NCBI GenBank assembly: GCA_945882415.1
Contig: CAMCWC010000004.1
Coordinates: 1 to 64,000 of the forward strand
DNA length: 64,000 nucleotides
Source: Chthonomonas calidirosea
GTDB taxonomy: Bacteria > Armatimonadota > Fimbriimonadia > Fimbriimonadales > Fimbriimonadaceae
Reading direction: 5' to 3'
The position numbers and the translations under genes were made by a program. Below, piece by piece: positions 3,934-12,559 of the stretch. The notes under the pieces are model-generated. The model was not told where the DNA came from. It worked only from the letters and a program-made list of their open reading frames with translations, and searched no databases. Every line of letters begins with the position of its first letter. Position 1 is the stretch's first letter.

Positions 3934-5058
3934 ATGCGGTTTGGGGTGATTGGGTGGGGGTTGCGGGCTTCTATTGCGAAGATGGCGCATCAGCCGGGGA
4001 AGGGACATCGGTTGGTGGCGTTGGCCGATCCGGACGTGGCCGTTCACGCGGCTTTTAAAGAGTTTGCCGGGGAAGGTGCGCAGGTCTTCACCGACTTCGA
4101 GTCGCTGAAGTCGCTCGACCTCGATGCAATCTTCGTGCTCTCGCCGGACTACCTGCATGAAGAGCACGCGGTGAACCTCTTGCAATCGAATATCCCGATC
4201 TATCTGGAGAAGCCGATGGCGATCACGATTGAGGGGTGCGACCATATTCTGCGCACCGCGGCGGAGACCGGGACGAAGCTGTATCTGGGGCACAACATGC
4301 GGCACTTTGCGGTGATTCGGCAGATGCGCGAGTGCATTCAGAGCGGGATGATTGGCGAAGTGAAGACGGCGTGGTGCCGACACTTTGTGAGCTACGGCGG
4401 CGATGCTTACTTCTGCGACTGGCACGCCGACCGGAGCAAATCGACCGGCCTGCTGCTGCAAAAAGGGGCGCACGATATCGACGTGCTGCACTGGCTGTGC
4501 AACGGCTACACCAAGCGCGTGGTGGCAATGGGGAACAACATGGTTTACGGAAACGTGCCGAACCGCCGCCCGGAAGGATCGGAAATGCGCGCGCAGTTCC
4601 GCTACTCCTGGCCGCCGACGGAGATCACCGAACTGAACCCGGTGCTCGACGTGGAAGACGTGAGCATGATGCTGATGGAACTCGACAACGGGGTTTTGGC
4701 GACGTATCAGCAGTGCCACTTCACGCCGGATTCGGTGCGGAACTATACGGTCATCGGCACCCACGGTCGCATCGAGAACTTTGGCGACACGCCGGGCAAG
4801 AGCGTGATTCGGATTTGGAACCGACCGCGATACGGATATGAAGAACCCGCCGATATCGAGTTCCGCCCGGCAGAAGAGCGAGGCGGGCACGGCGGGTCGG
4901 ACACGCGGATTATCGAAGAGTTCCTGCGCTACATCGAGCACGGCGGCGAGACCGATACTTCTCCGCTCGCGGCCCGAATGAGCGTGGCAGCGGGGGTCTG
5001 CGCGACCCACTCGCTGCGCAACGGCTCGGTTCCGGTCGATGTTCCGGCGGTCGGCTAG
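3934..5058 (+). CDS. Gfo/Idh/MocA-family oxidoreductase, cytoplasmic
   Basis: A 374-residue NAD(P)-dependent sugar or cyclitol dehydrogenase-type protein. The N-terminal Rossmann glycine motif is GVIGWG (residues 4-9). The family's EKP signature is at 92-94, and the Asp/His catalytic region KGAHDIDVLHW lies at about 177-187. It has no signal peptide, unlike the two other family members in this window. Substrate cannot be read from sequence; relatives oxidise or reduce sugars and inositols, often at C3. It stands alone on the plus strand and converges with ilvD, overlapping its 3' end by four bases. No good Shine-Dalgarno sequence precedes the ATG. Confidence 0.88.
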   Translation: MRFGVIGWGLRASIAKMAHQPGKGHRLVALADPDVAVHAAFKEFAGEGAQVFTDFESLKSLDLDAIFVLSPDYLHEEHAVNLLQSNIPIYLEKPMAITIEGCDHILRTAAETGTKLYLGHNMRHFAVIRQMRECIQSGMIGEVKTAWCRHFVSYGGDAYFCDWHADRSKSTGLLLQKGAHDIDVLHWLCNGYTKRVVAMGNNMVYGNVPNRRPEGSEMRAQFRYSWPPTEITELNPVLDVEDVSMMLMELDNGVLATYQQCHFTPDSVRNYTVIGTHGRIENFGDTPGKSVIRIWNRPRYGYEEPADIEFRPAEERGGHGGSDTRIIEEFLRYIEHGGETDTSPLAARMSVAAGVCATHSLRNGSVPVDVPAVG

Positions 5059-6728
5059 ACCGTAACCGCGCCCGAGCAAGCCGGGCCGACTTGGGCGGCG
5101 TACTTCTTGAGGACGCCGGTAAGAACGCGCTCGGGAGCCACCCAATCGGCCCGTCTGGTCGCAAGTTCCTCCGGTGATACGGCGACGGAAATTTCACCGG
5201 TCGTCGCATCGACGGTGATCTGGTCGCCATCGCGGACAAGGGCGATCGGACCGCCGTCGTAGGCTTCCGGTCCAACATGCCCAACCATGAGGCCGCGCGT
5301 GGCACCGCTGAAGCGACCATCGGTGAGGAGGGCGACTTCGTAGCCAAGGCCCTGACCGACGATGGCGGAAGTGACACCGAGCATTTCGCGCATTCCCGGT
5401 CCGCCCTTAGGACCTTCGTAGCGGATTACGACAACATCGCCCGCGACCACCTCGCGCCGCTGAACCGCCGCCATCGCGAGTTCCTCGCTATCGAAGCACC
5501 GCGCCGGGCCGGTGTGGGAGAGGTTTGTTACGCCGGTGGTTTTAACGACTCCACCGTCTGGGGCGAGATTGCCCTTGAGAATCGCGAGGCCGCCGGTGGG
5601 ATAGAACGCGGAGGTGTGCGGGTGGACGACGTCTTGACCCTCGGGAATCTCGATTCCTACAAGGTTCTCGGCCATGGTTTTTCCGTTGACGGTGAGGCAG
5701 TCTCCGTGCAGGCAACCGGCATCGAGGAGGGCCTTGAGGACCACCGGGACGCCGCCGACGGCATGGAGGTCCAGCATCACGTACTTTCCGCCGGGTCGGA
5801 GGTTCGCGAGGGTCGGGGTGCGCTCGCTGACGGCTTGGATGTCGTCGAGGGTGAAGGTGATGCCGAGCTCGTGGGCGATGGCGGGGATGTGCAGGGCGAC
5901 GTTGGTGGACCCGCCAGTTGCGGCCGCAATCGCGACGGCGTTCTCCATCGACTTGCGGGTGATGACGTCGCGCGGGAGGATGCCGAGGCGGATGGTTTCA
6001 ACGATCTGTCGTCCGACTTCGGCGAGGAAAAGGGAGCGCTCGGTGGAAACGGCCGGCGGAGATGACGAGCCGGGAAGGGCCATACCGAGGGCTTCGGCGA
6101 CGCATGCCATGGTGTTGGCGGTGTATTGCCCGCCGCAGGCTCCGGCTCCGGGGCAGACGGCGCACTCGACGCTTTTCAGTTCGGTGGCGTCGATCTTTCC
6201 GGCGGCGAAGGCTCCGGCAGCTTCGAAGGCATCTTGAATGGTGACGTCCTTTCCGTGGATGTGGCCGGGGAGAATGGTGCCGCCGTAGAGGAAGATGCTC
6301 GGCACATTGAGGCGGGCCATGACCATCAGCATGCCGGGGAGGGATTTATCGCACCCGGCGACGCCGATGAGGGCATCGTAGCAGTGGCCGCGCATCATGA
6401 GCTCGACGGAATCGGCGATGACCTCTCGGCTCACGAGCGAGCATTTCATGCCCTGGTGGCCCATGGCAATGCCGTCGCTTACGGAGATGGTGTCGAACCG
6501 GCGCGGGGTTCCGCCGGAGGCGGCGACGGAGTTCGCGATGAAGCGGGCTTGCTCGTCCAGGTTCCAGTTGCACGGGGTGGCCTCGGACCAAACGCTGGCC
6601 ACGCCGACCCACGGCTGATCGTAGATTTCGCGATCTCCCAGGCCCATGGCGCGGAGCATGGCGCGGTTGGCGGTTTTGTCGGTGCCTTGGGCAATCGTTT
6701 TGGATTGGTGCTTCGGATCAAATGGCAT
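5055..6728 (-). CDS. ilvD: Dihydroxy-acid dehydratase
   Basis: Converts 2,3-dihydroxy-isovalerate and 2,3-dihydroxy-3-methylvalerate to the 2-keto acids, the third common step of valine and isoleucine synthesis. The 557-residue length is usual for the family. The three cysteines expected to bind the iron-sulfur cluster are visible: C53 (ATPCNWN), C126 (AGCDKS) and C198 (CPGAGACGG). This is the last gene of the leftward ilvB-N-C-A-D operon. Its ATG lies inside the end of ilvA, overlapping it by 11 bases, which suggests translational coupling. The call is secure. Confidence 0.97.
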   Translation of the reverse strand: MPFDPKHQSKTIAQGTDKTANRAMLRAMGLGDREIYDQPWVGVASVWSEATPCNWNLDEQARFIANSVAASGGTPRRFDTISVSDGIAMGHQGMKCSLVSREVIADSVELMMRGHCYDALIGVAGCDKSLPGMLMVMARLNVPSIFLYGGTILPGHIHGKDVTIQDAFEAAGAFAAGKIDATELKSVECAVCPGAGACGGQYTANTMACVAEALGMALPGSSSPPAVSTERSLFLAEVGRQIVETIRLGILPRDVITRKSMENAVAIAAATGGSTNVALHIPAIAHELGITFTLDDIQAVSERTPTLANLRPGGKYVMLDLHAVGGVPVVLKALLDAGCLHGDCLTVNGKTMAENLVGIEIPEGQDVVHPHTSAFYPTGGLAILKGNLAPDGGVVKTTGVTNLSHTGPARCFDSEELAMAAVQRREVVAGDVVVIRYEGPKGGPGMREMLGVTSAIVGQGLGYEVALLTDGRFSGATRGLMVGHVGPEAYDGGPIALVRDGDQITVDATTGEISVAVSPEELATRRADWVAPERVLTGVLKKYAAQVGPACSGAVTV

Positions 6729-8274
6729 ATTGATTTTTGTGGGTGAGAAATTCTTGGATGGCGGGTGACTCGGTCACTTCGCGCATCGGGAAAGGCTGGC
6801 AAACGGTGAATTGGTCGAAGTCGGTGGTGGTCTCCGTTGGCACTTGGAAGCCGACGAGGGCCCGACCGCGGTCGGCGCCGTGGTTTCGGTAGTGGAACAG
6901 CGAGATGTTCCAGCGCGATCCGAGCTGATCGAGGAACGCGGCCAGCGCACCGGCTCGTTCGGGGAAATCGACACGGAAGATTCGTTCGGGGGTCGGGTCC
7001 GGGTTGCGGCCGCCGACGAGGTGGCGGATGTGGAGCTTCGCGGTCTCGTCCTGGGTGAGGTCGGAATAGTGGAATTTGGCTTTGCTCAAGCCGTGCTTTA
7101 GGGCGTCGGCATCGGCAGGGCCAGATACGGAAATTCCGGCGAACACGGTGGCGTTGGTCGAATCGCCAAAGCGATAGTTGAACTCAGTGAGGTTGCGCTT
7201 GCCGATGGCGTGGCAGAGCCGAACGAAGCTGCCCGCTTGCTCGGGAATTTGGATGGACAGGACCATTTCTCGGCCTGAGCCGGTGGCGGTGCGCTCGGCG
7301 ATGAAGTGGAGTCGGTCGAAGTTGAGGTTCGCGCCGGAGATAATCGCGATGGCGTTTTGGCCGGGAGAGGCCGTTCGGGCCCATTTGGTGAGTCCGGCGA
7401 CGGCGAGAGCGCCAGCGGGTTCGGGGAGGGCTCGATGCTCTTCGAAGACGTCTTTGATGGCGGCGCAAATTTCGTCGCTGGAGACGGTCATCATGTCGTC
7501 GACGAACATTTGGGAGAGGCGGAAGGTCTCTTCGCCGACCTTCTTCACGGCACAGCCATCCGCAAAGGAGCCGACATAGGAGAGGGCGACGCGCTCGCCG
7601 GTGCGCATGGATTGGGTCATCGCATCGGCGTCGTCGGCTTCGACGCCGATGACTTTGGTGTTAGGCGAGAGTTGTTTGATGACGGCGGCGACGCCGGCGA
7701 TTAAGCCGCCGCCGCCCACGGGGACAAAGACGATGTCCGCGTTCTGAATCTGGTTGAAAATTTCGAGGCCAATCGTGCCCTGACCGATGATGGTGGCGGG
7801 GTGATCGTACGGGTGGATGAACTCGCGCCCGGTTCGGGTCGCGATCTCGGAAGCATGATGGTAGGCGTCGTCGTAGGTGTCGCCGAAGACCTCCAGGGTT
7901 GCCCCCATGGAGCGGATGGCGGACTGCTTGATCTCGGGAGTGGTTTCGGGGACGACGATGGTGGCAGAGGTGCCAAGTTCTCGAGCCGCCCAGGCGACGC
8001 CTTGGGCATGGTTCCCGGCACTGGCGGCAACGACGCCAAGCGCGAGGGCTTGCGAGTCGAGGCCGGTCATTCGCTGGTACGCACCGCGAATCTTAAAGCT
8101 ATGAATCGGCTGCAGGTCTTCGCGTTTGAACCAGACGTGCTGGCGCAGCCGCTGGCTGAGGCGCGGGGCGGCGTCAAGGGGCGTGACCTTTGCGACGTTG
8201 TAAACCGCAGAGGTGCGGATTCTCCGGAGGTATTCCTCCGGAGAAATTTCGGTGGCGAGCACGGTTCCGGTCAT
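6718..8274 (-). CDS. ilvA: Threonine deaminase, biosynthetic type
   Basis: PLP-dependent conversion of threonine to 2-oxobutanoate, the first committed step to isoleucine. At 518 residues it is the long, allosteric type. The PLP lysine sits in HSFKIRGAYQRM (K61), with the substrate loop SAGNHAQG at 85-92 and the phosphate-binding VGGGGLIAGV near 186-196. From about residue 330 on there are two ACT-like regulatory domains, which in relatives sense isoleucine and valine. It starts three bases after ilvC and overlaps ilvD. The call is secure. Confidence 0.96.
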   Translation of the reverse strand: MTGTVLATEISPEEYLRRIRTSAVYNVAKVTPLDAAPRLSQRLRQHVWFKREDLQPIHSFKIRGAYQRMTGLDSQALALGVVAASAGNHAQGVAWAARELGTSATIVVPETTPEIKQSAIRSMGATLEVFGDTYDDAYHHASEIATRTGREFIHPYDHPATIIGQGTIGLEIFNQIQNADIVFVPVGGGGLIAGVAAVIKQLSPNTKVIGVEADDADAMTQSMRTGERVALSYVGSFADGCAVKKVGEETFRLSQMFVDDMMTVSSDEICAAIKDVFEEHRALPEPAGALAVAGLTKWARTASPGQNAIAIISGANLNFDRLHFIAERTATGSGREMVLSIQIPEQAGSFVRLCHAIGKRNLTEFNYRFGDSTNATVFAGISVSGPADADALKHGLSKAKFHYSDLTQDETAKLHIRHLVGGRNPDPTPERIFRVDFPERAGALAAFLDQLGSRWNISLFHYRNHGADRGRALVGFQVPTETTTDFDQFTVCQPFPMREVTESPAIQEFLTHKNQYAI

Positions 8275-8277
8275 GTT

Positions 8278-9291
8278 TTAGGAGCCGGACGGAACTTCTT
8301 TGACGGCGAGGAACGGCATCATGCCGCGAAGCTCCTTGCCGACAGTTTCGATCTGGTGGGCGCGCTCTTCGGCCCGGCGAGCTTTCATAGTCGGGGCACC
8401 GTTTTCGCTTTCTTCGATCCACTTTTTGGCGAACGAACCGTCTTGGATGTCGGAAAGAAGTCCCTTCATTGCGGCACGGGACTCGGCCCCGATGACCTGA
8501 CGGCCAGCAACATAGTCACCCCATTCGGCGGTGTCGCTGATGCTGTAGCGCATGTAGCTGAGGCCACCTTCGTAGAGGAGGTCGACGATCAGCTTGGTTT
8601 CATGCAGGCATTCGAAGTAAGCGGCTTCGGGCTGATAGCCAGCTTCCACGAGGGTTTCAAATCCGGCCTTGATGAGTTCGGAGATGCCGCCGCAAAGGAC
8701 GGCTTGCTCGCCAAACAGGTCCGTTTCGGTCTCTTCCTTGAAGGTGGTTTCCAGTATTCCGGCTTGGGCACAGCCGATTCCCCAAGCATAGGCCAGTGCG
8801 CGCTCCTTGGCCTGGCGGGTGCCGTCTTGTTGAACGGCAACAAGGGCAGGCATTCCGGCGCCTCGGACGTATTCGGCGCGTAGTCGATGGCCGGGGCCCT
8901 TCGGCGCAATCATCGCGATGTCGACGTTTTCGGGAGCTTGGATGAAGCCATAGTGGACGTTGAAGCCGTGGGCGAAGAGGAGGGTGGTGCCGGGCTTCAG
9001 GTTCGGCGCGACGGCGTCGGAGTAGATTCCGCGCATCGGCACGTCGGGGGTGCAGAACATGATGACGTCGGCCCACTTGGTGGCTTCCTCGACGCTTAGG
9101 ACGGTTAGGCCGTCGGCTTCTGCCTTGGCGATGCTTTTGCTGGTCGGGTGAAGGGCGACGCGGACTTCGCAGCCGCTGTCTTTCAGGTTTTGCGCATGGG
9201 CGTGGCCTTGCGATCCGTAACCGATAACGACGATGTTGAGTGACTTAGCCAGCTCAGTATTGGTGTCTTGTGTGTAATAAACCTTTGCCAT
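8278..9291 (-). CDS. ilvC: Ketol-acid reductoisomerase, class I
   Basis: NAD(P)H- and Mg-dependent isomeroreductase acting on acetolactate and acetohydroxybutyrate. It has 337 residues, the short class I length. The nucleotide motif [13 protein letters not shown] is at 24-36; the cofactor-selectivity loop reads HPTSKS. The metal-binding acidic region follows ([19 protein letters not shown]). A clear Shine-Dalgarno sequence (GAGGAG) precedes the ATG and overlaps the ilvN stop region six bases upstream. Third gene of the operon. Confidence 0.97.
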
Positions 9292-9297
9292 GTTGAA

Positions 9298-9786
9298 TCA
9301 CTCCTCTGCGCTCATGGCAACCGTGCCAGAGCGAACTATTTTCTTGATACCGTAAGGTTCGAGAAGGCGGATTAGGCCCTGGATTTTGCGGGCGTTGGCG
9401 ACGACTTGAACGGTCATCGTTTTGAGCCCAAGGTGAACGATCTCACAGTTCAGCACCCGCGAGATGTCGATGATCTCGGATCGCTTTTCTGGCGGAGCTT
9501 CCACCTGGATGAAGGCGAGTTCGCGGTGAACGTATTCCTTGCCATCGAGCGACTCGACGGAGACGACGTCCACGGCTTTTTCGAGCTGCATGACGCATTG
9601 GCGGAGCATGTTGTCATCGGCGTTGACGACAATCGACATTCGGCTCAGGCCGGGTTCCTCGCAGTCTCCGACGGCGAGGCTGCTGAGCGAGAAGCCGCGG
9701 CGCCGGAAGAGGCTGATCATGCGGTTGAGGGTTCCGTGCTCGTTGTGTACGAGCGCGGTGACGGTGTGCTCTTGGGTGTGCCTCAT
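9298..9786 (-). CDS. ilvN: Acetolactate synthase, small regulatory subunit
   Basis: Regulatory subunit of acetohydroxyacid synthase, with 162 residues. An N-terminal ACT domain (from about residue 7, VTALVHNEHGTLNRMISLFRR) normally binds valine for feedback inhibition; the C-terminal half matches the ALS_ss_C type. The ATG overlaps the ilvB stop as ATGA, so the catalytic and regulatory subunits are probably made in coupled fashion. Confidence 0.95.
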   Translation of the reverse strand: MRHTQEHTVTALVHNEHGTLNRMISLFRRRGFSLSSLAVGDCEEPGLSRMSIVVNADDNMLRQCVMQLEKAVDVVSVESLDGKEYVHRELAFIQVEAPPEKRSEIIDISRVLNCEIVHLGLKTMTVQVVANARKIQGLIRLLEPYGIKKIVRSGTVAMSAEE

Positions 9787-11510
9787 GCTGGTATCCCCAT
9801 TGGGGCTTTGTCTTTCGGCAGGCCTGGGTCCATTTGCACCTGGTCGTTGGCTTTTCCGGCGGGGACCATCGGGAAGACGTTCTCTTCCATTTCCACCAAG
9901 AACTCCACGAGGACCGGGCCATCGGCGGCGCGGGCTTGCTCGAAGGTGTTCTCGAGATCTTCGCGAGTGGAGCAGCGGAAGAAGGTCACGCCGTAGGCTT
10001 CGGCAAGCTTGCCGAAGTCTGGGCTGCCCATTTCGACGTGGCTGTAGCGGTTCTCAAAGAACAGCTCTTGCCACTGGCGGACCATTCCGAGGTAGCCATT
10101 GTTGACGAGGCAGATTTTCACGTTGAGCTTATGCTCGACGGCGGTTTGGAGTTCTTGGAGGGTCATCTGGAACCCGCCGTCGCCGACGACCGCCCAAACT
10201 TCCTGCTTGGGGTTAGCAAAGGCAGCGCCCATGGCAGCAGGGAAGCCGAAGCCCATGGTGCCGAGTCCACCGCTGGAGAGCCACTGGAACGGGCGCTTGA
10301 AGCGATAAAGCTGGGCGGTCCACATCTGGTGCTGGCCCACGTCGGTGCTGATGATGGCGTCGCTGTTGGTGGTGCGGTCCAGCATTTGCAGAACGTGCCG
10401 GGCCATGAGTCCGGTGGAATCTGGAACGACAAGGGGAAATTCCTGTTGCCAGCCGCGGAGTTTGGCCCACCATTCCTCATTCACCTTTGGCTGTACGGCG
10501 GCGGTGAAGGCAGGCAGGGTCTCGCTCAGGTCGCCGGGAACGCAGAGGGTGGTTTCGACGACCTTAGCGAATTCGCTGGGGTCGAGGTCGAAGTGGATGA
10601 TTTTGGCGTTCGGAGCGAAACCGGCGACTTTTCCGGTGAGGCGGTCATCGAAGCGGATTCCGATGCCGATCAGGAGGTCGGCTTCTTGAACGGCGAGGGT
10701 GCCCACGGCTTCGCCGTGCATTCCCATCATGCCGAGGCTGCGTTCGTTTTGGCGATCGATGCTACCGAGGCCGAGGAGGGAGTTGATGATGGGGAGGTCG
10801 GCCTTTTCGGCAAGCTCGGCAAGAGCTTGGTTGGTTTCGGACCAAACGACGCCCGCACCCGCGATGATCACTGGCTTCTTAGCTTCTGCAACTAACTTGG
10901 CAGCGGCTTCAACTGCGGTGTCGTTGGTCGCGGCGGAAGCGCGGTATCCGCGACGGACAATCTCGGTCGGGAACGGAACGGAGGACATTGCGGTGAATAC
11001 GTCCTTCGGGATGTCGACAAGCACGGGGCCCTTTCTTCCGGTGTTGGCAAGGTGGAAGGCTTCGACCAGCGCGTGCGGCAGGTCATCGACGTCCATCACC
11101 AAATAGTTGTGTTTGGTAATAGGAATGGTGATTCCTTGAATGTCGGTTTCTTGGAACGCATCTGTACCGACGGCCCAAGAGTTGACTTGGCCGGTGATGG
11201 CGACCATCGGAATGCTGTCCATGATGGCGGTCGCAATTCCAGTGACGAGGTTGGTGGCGCCGGGGCCGCTGGTGGCGAGGCAAACGCCGACTTTGGCGGT
11301 CGAGCGGGCGTAGCCATCGGCCATGTGCGCTGCGCACTGCTCATGGCGAACTAGAACGTGTTGGATGGCGGGCCATCGTGTCATTTCGTCGTAGAGCGGC
11401 AAGACCACTCCTCCGGGGTATCCGAAGATGATGTCCACACCGTGCAGGGCCAACGCCTCCATCACGATCTGGGCGCCGCTTCTTGGCGCTACTGTCTGTT
11501 CAGATTGCAT
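9783..11510 (-). CDS. ilvB: Acetolactate synthase, large catalytic subunit
   Basis: ThDP-dependent condensation of pyruvate with pyruvate or 2-oxobutanoate, the first shared step of branched-chain amino acid synthesis. From the ATG at 11510 it has 575 residues. The catalytic glutamate of the ThDP site is in LVRHEQ (E57), and the ThDP/Mg motif begins GDGGFQMTLQEL in the C-terminal third. A GTG 51 bases upstream (11561) is in frame, but the family starts close to SGAQIVMEAL, so I prefer 11510. It is the first structural gene behind the attenuator at 11600-11778. Confidence 0.95.
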   Translation of the reverse strand: MQSEQTVAPRSGAQIVMEALALHGVDIIFGYPGGVVLPLYDEMTRWPAIQHVLVRHEQCAAHMADGYARSTAKVGVCLATSGPGATNLVTGIATAIMDSIPMVAITGQVNSWAVGTDAFQETDIQGITIPITKHNYLVMDVDDLPHALVEAFHLANTGRKGPVLVDIPKDVFTAMSSVPFPTEIVRRGYRASAATNDTAVEAAAKLVAEAKKPVIIAGAGVVWSETNQALAELAEKADLPIINSLLGLGSIDRQNERSLGMMGMHGEAVGTLAVQEADLLIGIGIRFDDRLTGKVAGFAPNAKIIHFDLDPSEFAKVVETTLCVPGDLSETLPAFTAAVQPKVNEEWWAKLRGWQQEFPLVVPDSTGLMARHVLQMLDRTTNSDAIISTDVGQHQMWTAQLYRFKRPFQWLSSGGLGTMGFGFPAAMGAAFANPKQEVWAVVGDGGFQMTLQELQTAVEHKLNVKICLVNNGYLGMVRQWQELFFENRYSHVEMGSPDFGKLAEAYGVTFFRCSTREDLENTFEQARAADGPVLVEFLVEMEENVFPMVPAGKANDQVQMDPGLPKDKAPMGIPA

Positions 11511-11599
11511 ACAAATTGTCCGTTTTTCCGCTGCCCAACCCGGACCGGGGAAGGTGTCCACCTTCGGCGGCTGAGCTCAGCGGCGCTGCTGGACCCAAC

Positions 11600-11631
11600 A
11601 AAAAAGCCTTCCCGGTTTCCCGGGAAGGCTT
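11600..11631 (-). terminator. Intrinsic terminator (attenuator) upstream of ilvB
   Basis: On the minus strand AAGCCTTCCCGG, a GAAA tetraloop and CCGGGAAGGCTT form a perfect 12-bp stem, followed at once by more T residues. This is a textbook Rho-independent terminator. It lies about 90 bases before the ilvB ATG, so it can act as an attenuator. Its 5' arm can also pair with an upstream segment (see the antiterminator). Confidence 0.92.
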
Positions 11632-11655
11632 CAGTCATTCTTTAGCTTCCCGGGA
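11618..11655 (-). promoter_or_regulatory. Predicted antiterminator hairpin of the ilv attenuator
   Basis: The segment TCCCGGGAAG (11655-11646) pairs perfectly over ten bases with CTTCCCGGGA (11627-11618). The second segment is part of the 5' arm of the terminator stem, so the two hairpins are mutually exclusive. The first segment begins at the base after the leader-peptide stop codon, so a ribosome resting on that stop would cover it and free the terminator. This is the classic 2:3 versus 3:4 arrangement; the pairing is seen, the mechanism is inferred. Confidence 0.8.
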
Positions 11656-11757
11656 CTAGGTCGGTCCAATAATAAGGAGGAGACCAAGAAGCGCAAGGAG
11701 GCCGACCAATACATCGTACTGGCTAGCCGCGCGCACTCCAAAGACCTGGGAAGACAT
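11656..11757 (-). CDS. ilv leader peptide rich in Leu, Val and Ile
   Basis: A 33-codon reading frame ends in TAG at 11658-11656. Residues 16-30 read VLVGLLALLGLLLII: eight Leu, two Val and two Ile in fifteen positions, ending three residues before the stop. Such a run just before a terminator and an ilv operon is the hallmark of ribosome-mediated attenuation. An in-frame ATG at 11778 would give 40 residues, but the putative -10 box lies between the two ATGs, so the transcript probably begins only a few bases before 11757. The hydrophobic run could also be read as a membrane segment, but the terminator and antiterminator favour a leader peptide. Confidence 0.8.
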   Translation of the reverse strand: MSSQVFGVRAASQYDVLVGLLALLGLLLIIGPT

Positions 11758-11769
11758 AGGAACGGCAGG

Positions 11770-11798
11770 ACTATACATCACTTTTCCGAAAAAGCCAA
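11770..11798 (-). promoter_or_regulatory. Predicted sigma-70-type promoter of the ilv operon
   Basis: On the minus strand TTGGCT (11798-11793) and TATAGT (11775-11770) are separated by 17 bases. The -10 differs from consensus at one position. Transcription would start around 11764, leaving a very short 5' UTR before the leader-peptide ATG at 11757. It lies in the gap between the esterase stop and the leader. Confidence 0.6.
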
Positions 11799-11827: not shown

Positions 11828-12559
11828 TCAGAAGTTTAGGTTTTTCCGGTGGAAGGCGATCGCCTCTTGGACGTGGGTATCCCAGTAACCCCACTCGTGG
11901 CTGCCGGGGAACTCCTCGTATTCGTGCTCGTACCCAATTTCGTTTAGGTGGGCGGTGTAGCGGCGATTTTCTTCTAGAAGGAAATCTTCGGTTCCGCAGT
12001 CGATGCGGATCTTGATCTGGTCCTTGTGCGTTTCTGCAAGCTGGAACAGATCATTGGGACCACCGTGGGGCGCGGTGCCGAAGGTTCGATACCACTCGAG
12101 GTCTTCTTGGGATCGGTCGAGGGCGATTCCTTCGCCGAACTTGATGAGGGCGCCGGAGTGGGAGACCGCCGACTTGAAGAGATCTGGATAGTTGAAGGCG
12201 GTCCGTAGTGCGCCGTAGCCGCCCATCGACAGACCGGTGATGCTCCACACATCTACGGTCGAGAACCAATTTCGGATGAGTGCGGGGAGTTCTTCTCCGA
12301 CGGCTTTGCCGTAGGAGTAGCCGTTATCCATGTCTACATAAAAGCCACGGTGACCATTTGGCATCACAACGATCAGTGGAAGGCCGTCGACGTAACGCTC
12401 AATGCTGGTGCGACGGGTCCAGATGGTGTGGTCATCGCTCCGGCCATGGAGCAGGAACATGACTTGGTATGGGCCGGGGGAGTCTTGCGGCAAAATGACG
12501 GTTGCGGCGGTTTGCATGCCAAGGGCATGACTGTAGTAGCGGAGATCCAGCAGGGCCAT
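11828..12559 (-). CDS. Alpha/beta-hydrolase esterase, esterase D-like
   Basis: A 243-residue cytoplasmic serine esterase of the putative-esterase type (PF00756: enterochelin esterase, S-formylglutathione hydrolase, acetyl-xylan esterase-like). The nucleophile elbow is GLSMGG with S111. The Asp is probably in CGTEDFLL and the His in GSHEWGYW near the end. LLHGRSDDHTIW near 37-48 supplies the oxyanion region. It has no signal peptide. The gene lies just upstream of the ilv promoter in the same direction. The substrate is unknown. Confidence 0.85.
   Translation of the reverse strand: MALLDLRYYSHALGMQTAATVILPQDSPGPYQVMFLLHGRSDDHTIWTRRTSIERYVDGLPLIVVMPNGHRGFYVDMDNGYSYGKAVGEELPALIRNWFSTVDVWSITGLSMGGYGALRTAFNYPDLFKSAVSHSGALIKFGEGIALDRSQEDLEWYRTFGTAPHGGPNDLFQLAETHKDQIKIRIDCGTEDFLLEENRRYTAHLNEIGYEHEYEEFPGSHEWGYWDTHVQEAIAFHRKNLNF

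Follow-up and report, generated by a model that had tools for sequence, protein, structure and literature searches.

The 64,000-nucleotide stretch of DNA analysed here (the window) comes from a genome assigned to Chthonomonas calidirosea of the phylum Armatimonadota, and it carries on its minus strand a set of genes that the original prediction had named ilvBNCAD. NCBIfam models give the same names to all five. The first gene of the operon is ilvB (9783-11510; TIGR00118), which encodes the acetolactate synthase large subunit, and it is accompanied by ilvN for the acetolactate synthase small subunit (9298-9786; TIGR00119), ilvC for ketol-acid reductoisomerase (8278-9291; NF004017/TIGR00465), ilvA for threonine ammonia-lyase (6718-8274; TIGR01124) and ilvD for dihydroxy-acid dehydratase (5055-6728; TIGR00110). 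There is an esterase-like gene (11828-12559) upstream of the leader region. The ilvB gene lacks a clear Shine-Dalgarno sequence within positions 11511-11600 of the window, in contrast to relatives that have GGAG ahead of the start codon.

The leader preceding ilvB is also encoded on the minus strand. A -35-like hexamer, TTGGCT (11793-11798), is followed after 17 bases by the -10 hexamer TATAGT (11770-11775), which is located 12 nucleotides ahead of the leader ATG. The leader open reading frame (ORF) of 33 codons and a TAG stop codon (11656-11757; MSSQVFGVRAASQYDVLVGLLALLGLLLIIGPT) includes a run of putative regulatory codons (11668-11712; VLVGLLALLGLLLII), recognized by its sequence and codon bias, wherein 12 of the 15 residues are Leu, Val or Ile. 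There is no Shine-Dalgarno sequence in the 20 nucleotides located 5' of this ORF in the window genome. The 5' arm of the antiterminator, termed segment 2 (TCCCGGGAAG, 11646-11655), begins on the base that directly follows the TAG codon, just as had been claimed. Its partner is segment 3 (CTTCCCGGGA, 11618-11627), which can alternatively form part of a 12-bp intrinsic terminator hairpin composed of segments 3 and 4 (AAGCCTTCCCGG-GAAA-CCGGGAAGGCTT, 11604-11631) that ends in a T-run (11600-11605). Thus, the promoter pair, the ORF rich in Leu, Val and Ile, the stop codon, segment 2, the GAAA-loop terminator and the T-run of the original prediction could each be located. The interval of 11600-11778 assigned to them needs to be extended, because it ends short of the -35 hexamer.

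Both alternative structures are more stable than expected from their composition. The folding energy of the antiterminator (2:3) in the window is -20.4 kcal/mol (z -4.7) and that of the terminator is -25.2 kcal/mol (z -6.1), and no shuffled sequence equalled either value. The combination of elements is also rare. A search of 400 kb of the window genome yielded 3558 ORFs with lengths of 15-60 codons. At least 10 Leu, Ile or Val residues in a stretch of 15 are found in only 4 of these, and only one of the 3558, the ilvB leader, also has a terminator within 90 nucleotides.

Conservation and covariation across the host family

Orthologues of ilvB were collected from 16 of 20 genomes of the host genus and from 14 more genomes of the host family. 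These yielded 29 loci with readable upstream DNA (16 and 13, respectively), and one more locus ended at a contig edge. The complete device, consisting of leader ORF, stop codon, segment 2 and hairpin, is present in all 29 of these host-family genomes, which represent eight genera. Every member of the alignment of relatives for which the original prediction had called thus has the leader frame with its run of Leu, Val and Ile, and keeps the terminator as well as the 2:3 pairing; the loss of the frame or of the 2:3 pairing among relatives, named there as evidence against the proposal, is not seen in any of the 29. The leader ORFs range from 31 to 47 codons, and segment 2 always overlaps the stop codon or comes just after it, with the 5' arm of the hairpin able to pair with it. 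Outside the Leu/Ile/Val run the peptides are divergent, and their N-terminal halves are not conserved.

Three genomes of the host genus (G011, G015 and G009) have no ilvB that we could find, even though leuA is present. The first two are 97-98% complete, and therefore such species may be unable to make branched-chain amino acids from pyruvate. The attenuator was not seen in front of leuA or trpE at the genus loci examined.

Covariation was assessed in a MAFFT alignment of 26 leaders, from which three with a shifted register were excluded. In the terminator, 98.4% of the alignment cells are paired, and changes on both sides occur in 7 of the 12 pairs, compared with a mean of 2.5 in shuffles. 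Similarly, 88% of the cells are paired in the antiterminator, wherein both sides have changed in 6 of the 9 pairs (shuffle mean 2.2). The covariation proposed as a check on the two hairpins is therefore found in each. When the arms are slid by one column, pairing falls to 64-70% and the signals of both helices are destroyed. Individual leaders illustrate how different the paired sequences have become: segment 2 of L013 (CCCCAGGAAG) pairs with a segment 3 that reads CTTCCTGGGG, and in L003 the corresponding partners are GGGAAGACC and GGTCTTCCC. Among all 29 leaders, the 2:3 duplex is better than mononucleotide shuffles in 25, for which no more than 14 of 300 shuffles are as good.

A covariance model, also built from 26 leaders and thus without L010, L011 and L116, recovers L010 (3e-7) and L116 (1e-6), both at the correct position, and gives a weak match to L011 (0.013). 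Matches below 1e-6 in 85 genomes of the host family are all located at ilvB, except for one that represents a terminator after another gene. Weaker matches away from ilvB are mostly ordinary terminators that follow genes, among them one on contig C20 of genome G138 (E 2e-8), which is preceded by a long gene.

There is a convincing intrinsic terminator between the esterase-like gene and ilvB, and it could be argued that this hairpin simply ends the transcript of the former gene, that the ORF has arisen by chance and that the ilvB promoter lies further downstream. However, the sequence located 5' of the promoter differs among relatives, and the leader and its hairpins remain with ilvB. Moreover, the combination of a short ORF of this composition with a terminator is unique in the 400 kb searched, and a simple terminator has no need of segment 2, yet this segment is conserved with compensatory changes. 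We consider this explanation extremely improbable.

The codon run deserves similar scrutiny, since 15-20 residues of Leu, Ile and Val could span a membrane. The ORF could then encode a real small membrane peptide whose transmembrane segment is the run, and the terminator would merely end its transcript. Composition argues against such a peptide, because the run is nearly free of Phe, Met, Trp and Tyr: these residues make up 0.8% of the run, compared with 5.7% in other genome windows that are equally rich in Leu, Ile and Val. The transmembrane reading was rejected on this test. It is also opposed by the lack of conservation in the N-terminal half, by the near-constant distance of the run from the stop codon and segment 2 in the family leaders, and by an alternative 2:3 pairing that covaries and is always located ahead of ilvB, and hence we assign it a negligible likelihood. 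The run is biased in its codon choice as well. CTT accounts for 49% of the leader Leu codons (22% in the genome) and ATT for 78% of the leader Ile codons (34% in the genome).

Predicted translation start and mode of action

The -10 hexamer is located close to the leader ORF in nearly all members of the family. The gap between the two, 12 nucleotides in the window, is 4-13 nucleotides in 28 of the 29 leaders, and the hexamer is TANNNT or a close match to it, with L122 as a weaker exception. A Shine-Dalgarno-like tetramer is absent from 22 of the 29 leaders, and where one is present, it coincides in several cases with part of the -10 hexamer. This proximity of the -10 hexamer to the start codon, mostly unaccompanied by a Shine-Dalgarno sequence, suggests that translation of the leader starts at, or very close to, the 5' end of the transcript. 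Leaderless mRNAs appear to be common in the host genus, as judged from a peak of TANNNT hexamers six nucleotides 5' of the first start codon in long ORFs (22 of 303, compared with 2-3 per position elsewhere) in 400 kb of the window genome. This peak was computed on contigs C4 and C5 of G000. TATAAT-like boxes are also found right before leuA and trpE at genus loci (L183-L220), and both genes appear to begin a few nucleotides past the -10 element. Taken together, the -10 spacing, the genome-wide peak and the likeness to leuA and trpE make it probable that ribosomes are loaded right at the 5' end of the ilvB leader transcript.

These comparisons demonstrate the parts of the device and how they are arranged, and they show that the parts are conserved and that both helices covary. 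Conservation in all 29 genomes and compensatory changes in both helices strongly favour the claim of ribosome-mediated ilv attenuation in the original prediction, and very likely the locus is a leader-peptide-type transcription attenuator of ilvBNCAD. For transcription start, translation, termination and amino acid response, we infer the following course of events. RNA polymerase would start about 0-6 nucleotides 5' of the leader ATG, and a ribosome would load on the 5' end of the leaderless or nearly leaderless transcript. When charged Leu, Ile and Val tRNAs are ample, the ribosome would reach the stop codon, where its footprint would cover segment 2, such that segment 3 would pair with segment 4 and transcription would end before ilvB. 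When a branched-chain aminoacyl-tRNA is in short supply, the ribosome would come to a halt within the Leu/Ile/Val run, 5' of segment 2. Segment 2, left free, would then form the 2:3 helix, thereby blocking the terminator and allowing the operon to be transcribed.

The spacing of the elements is compatible with this scheme. Counted from the first base of the stop codon, segment 2 ends at 16 nucleotides in the window leader and at 13-21 nucleotides in 28 of the 29 leaders, which is approximately the downstream reach of a ribosome positioned at a stop codon. The last Ile codon of the window leader is 14 nucleotides from segment 2. Thus, as far as geometry can indicate, segment 2 would be masked by a ribosome at the stop codon and released when the ribosome is stalled within the run. 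In some relatives the last Leu, Ile or Val codon is merely 3-8 nucleotides ahead of segment 2, and therefore only earlier codons of the run could act in these leaders. By a crude count, up to 13 of the 29 relatives have a weak U-tract, with fewer than five T in the eight nucleotides that follow the core stem; this count is wrong for at least L010, which has an intact T-run. Termination efficiency is uncertain in relatives with weak U-tracts, of which there are roughly ten, and basal termination may therefore differ between species. A caution comes from a similar-looking ilvB leader of Streptomyces coelicolor, wherein mutation of the candidate codons gave no response (PMC1262725), and therefore anatomy alone has misled before.

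Some attenuators include a 1:2 protector hairpin, and a candidate for segment 1 is CTTCTTGG, which is part of the Leu codons, can pair with segment 2 and occurs in 10 of the 29 leaders. Among the 29 leaders, this hairpin does not exceed chance under nulls that vary codon order or synonymous codons.

Comparison with T-boxes and known leader peptides

Amino acid attenuators of Proteobacteria include those of Escherichia coli ilvGMEDA, ilvBN and leuABCD, in which the regulatory codons correspond to the products of the pathway and 2:3 and 3:4 pairings compete. The proteobacterial ilv and leu leaders use a Shine-Dalgarno sequence and a 1:2 protector. The leader described here appears to differ on both counts, in that its start is predicted to be leaderless or nearly so and its 1:2 pairing is not beyond chance. 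Members of Rfam amino acid leader families were not recovered above the gathering threshold; the best match, with relaxed thresholds also tried, was to Phe_leader at 26.2 bits compared with a threshold of 55.

The best parallel for a leaderless leader is ilvBNC of Corynebacterium glutamicum, which is transcribed from a position just one nucleotide away from the start codon of its leader and is thus leaderless (PMC11857589). Both systems have a leader peptide with Ile, Val and Leu and a terminator before ilvB, and the ilvB leader of the host family is, as in C. glutamicum, probably leaderless or nearly so. In contrast, the peptide of C. glutamicum has 15 residues (MTIIRLVVVTARRLP; PMC11857589), whereas that of the window has 33 with a long run and those of relatives have 31-47. 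In addition, an antiantiterminator hairpin has been proposed for C. glutamicum (PMC11857589), whereas no conserved 1:2 hairpin was found among the leaders studied here, and the operon is ilvBNC rather than ilvBNCAD. The ilvB1NC leader of Mycobacterium tuberculosis likewise has an upstream ORF rich in branched-chain residues and alternative terminator and antiterminator structures, and a ribosome positioned at the stop codon masks the antiterminator (PMC13236596). It differs by its conventional 166-nucleotide leader and by belonging to another phylum (PMC13236596).

Attenuation of the ilv type has been reported for Actinobacteria (PMC1262725, PMC13236596) and Firmicutes (PMC5794164, PMC5864092). 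The original prediction had given Proteobacteria and Actinobacteria as its best-known range, which holds for both groups but has to be widened to include Firmicutes. The accompanying remark that no description from an Armatimonadota-like genome was known to its author agrees with the open-access literature, in which we found no description of a leader peptide from this phylum (subscription papers were outside the scope of this search). Thus, the kind of attenuator is already known, and what is new is its occurrence in Armatimonadota and the apparent lineage-specific replacement of a sensor. The documented range of ribosome-mediated amino acid attenuation gains a phylum as a result.

The sensor that it would replace is the T-box (RF00230), which also responds to amino acid supply and controls ilvB in other Armatimonadota. 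It differs in reading tRNA directly, with no need for a translated ORF. T-boxes are found at E <=1e-4 in 151 of 291 genomes across the phylum and in none of the 85 host-family genomes. There is no T-box match in the window, at the family loci or in these 85 genomes under the stricter filters, which weak T-boxes could escape. For comparison outside the family, we read 46 regions upstream of ilvB in other families, together with one locus from the same order (L017). A comparable leader is present in none of the 46 regions and not at L017, and a T-box core occurs within 900 bp of ilvB in 14 of the 46, eight of which exceed the Rfam cut-off. It looks as if the leader device stands in, within the host family, for the T-boxes found ahead of ilvB elsewhere in the phylum. 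That a T-box and a leader peptide can be exchanged for each other at a single gene is known, for example, from hisS (PMC2965389).

This contrast within a phylum, wherein the same operon is located behind a T-box in many families and behind a leader peptide throughout one family without detectable T-boxes, is one reason for interest in the locus. Another is that leaderless genes appear to be common in the lineage, and so the locus illustrates how a leader peptide of the leaderless type can become established family-wide. In addition, the 29 diverged natural leaders provide a ready mutational series for studying the mechanism.

A second RNA element and other candidate leaders

A second conserved structure follows the attenuator terminator and precedes the ilvB start codon in 26 of the 29 relatives (L003-L016 and L110-L123; for example, positions 1439-1500 on the plus strand of L012). 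It consists of two tandem 5-bp hairpins with 6-nucleotide RNNGNN loops, and it is located just 5' of the ilvB Shine-Dalgarno sequence. Pairing is found in 89.8% of the alignment cells, and both sides have changed in 8 of the 10 pairs, compared with 3.9 in shuffles. The element was not recognized in the window genome or in G014, has no match in Rfam and was not found upstream of ilvB in other families. The idea that it is a genome-wide repeat was rejected, as strong model matches occur solely at ilvB.

Most relatives have this covarying element at the ribosome-binding site of ilvB, and some have weak U-tracts, which would allow other outputs. These features raise the question of whether the leader acts otherwise, for example by translational coupling, Rho-dependent termination or protein sensing at the hairpins. 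However, the T-run is intact in the window genome, where the second element is not recognized, and the mutually exclusive 2:3 and 3:4 helices directly fit attenuation. We therefore regard these other modes of control as quite unlikely and retain transcription attenuation as the preferred reading.

A broader proposal can be offered only tentatively, and we are inclined to doubt that all of its parts will hold. The ilvB mRNA of the family might combine the attenuator with a novel type of structured RNA that is present in most members and acts on translation. The leaderless design might also have diversified to Phe and Trp codons before stand-alone ilvN-like genes, within a lineage where T-boxes are not detectable.

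There are five attenuator-like leaders rich in Phe, Trp and Tyr, with motifs such as FWWFF, GFWWSF, YFFGFWWY and FGFVFFW, and one that is rich in Val and Ile. The former (L236 on G019:C43, L237 on G013:C46, L238 on G004:C21, L254 on G017:C114 and L270 on G012:C41) have a terminator and a post-stop antiterminator arm. The genes that follow the Phe/Trp/Tyr-rich leaders are stand-alone and match the C-terminal domain of the acetolactate synthase small subunit or its ACT domain. The Val/Ile-rich leader (MIEVVTNHPIIRAHLACAPSIQVVVIIVAPPS) is located with a terminator before a separate ACT-domain gene at approximately positions 300-760 of L239 (G017:C39), and the genome that contains it also carries the ilvB attenuator.
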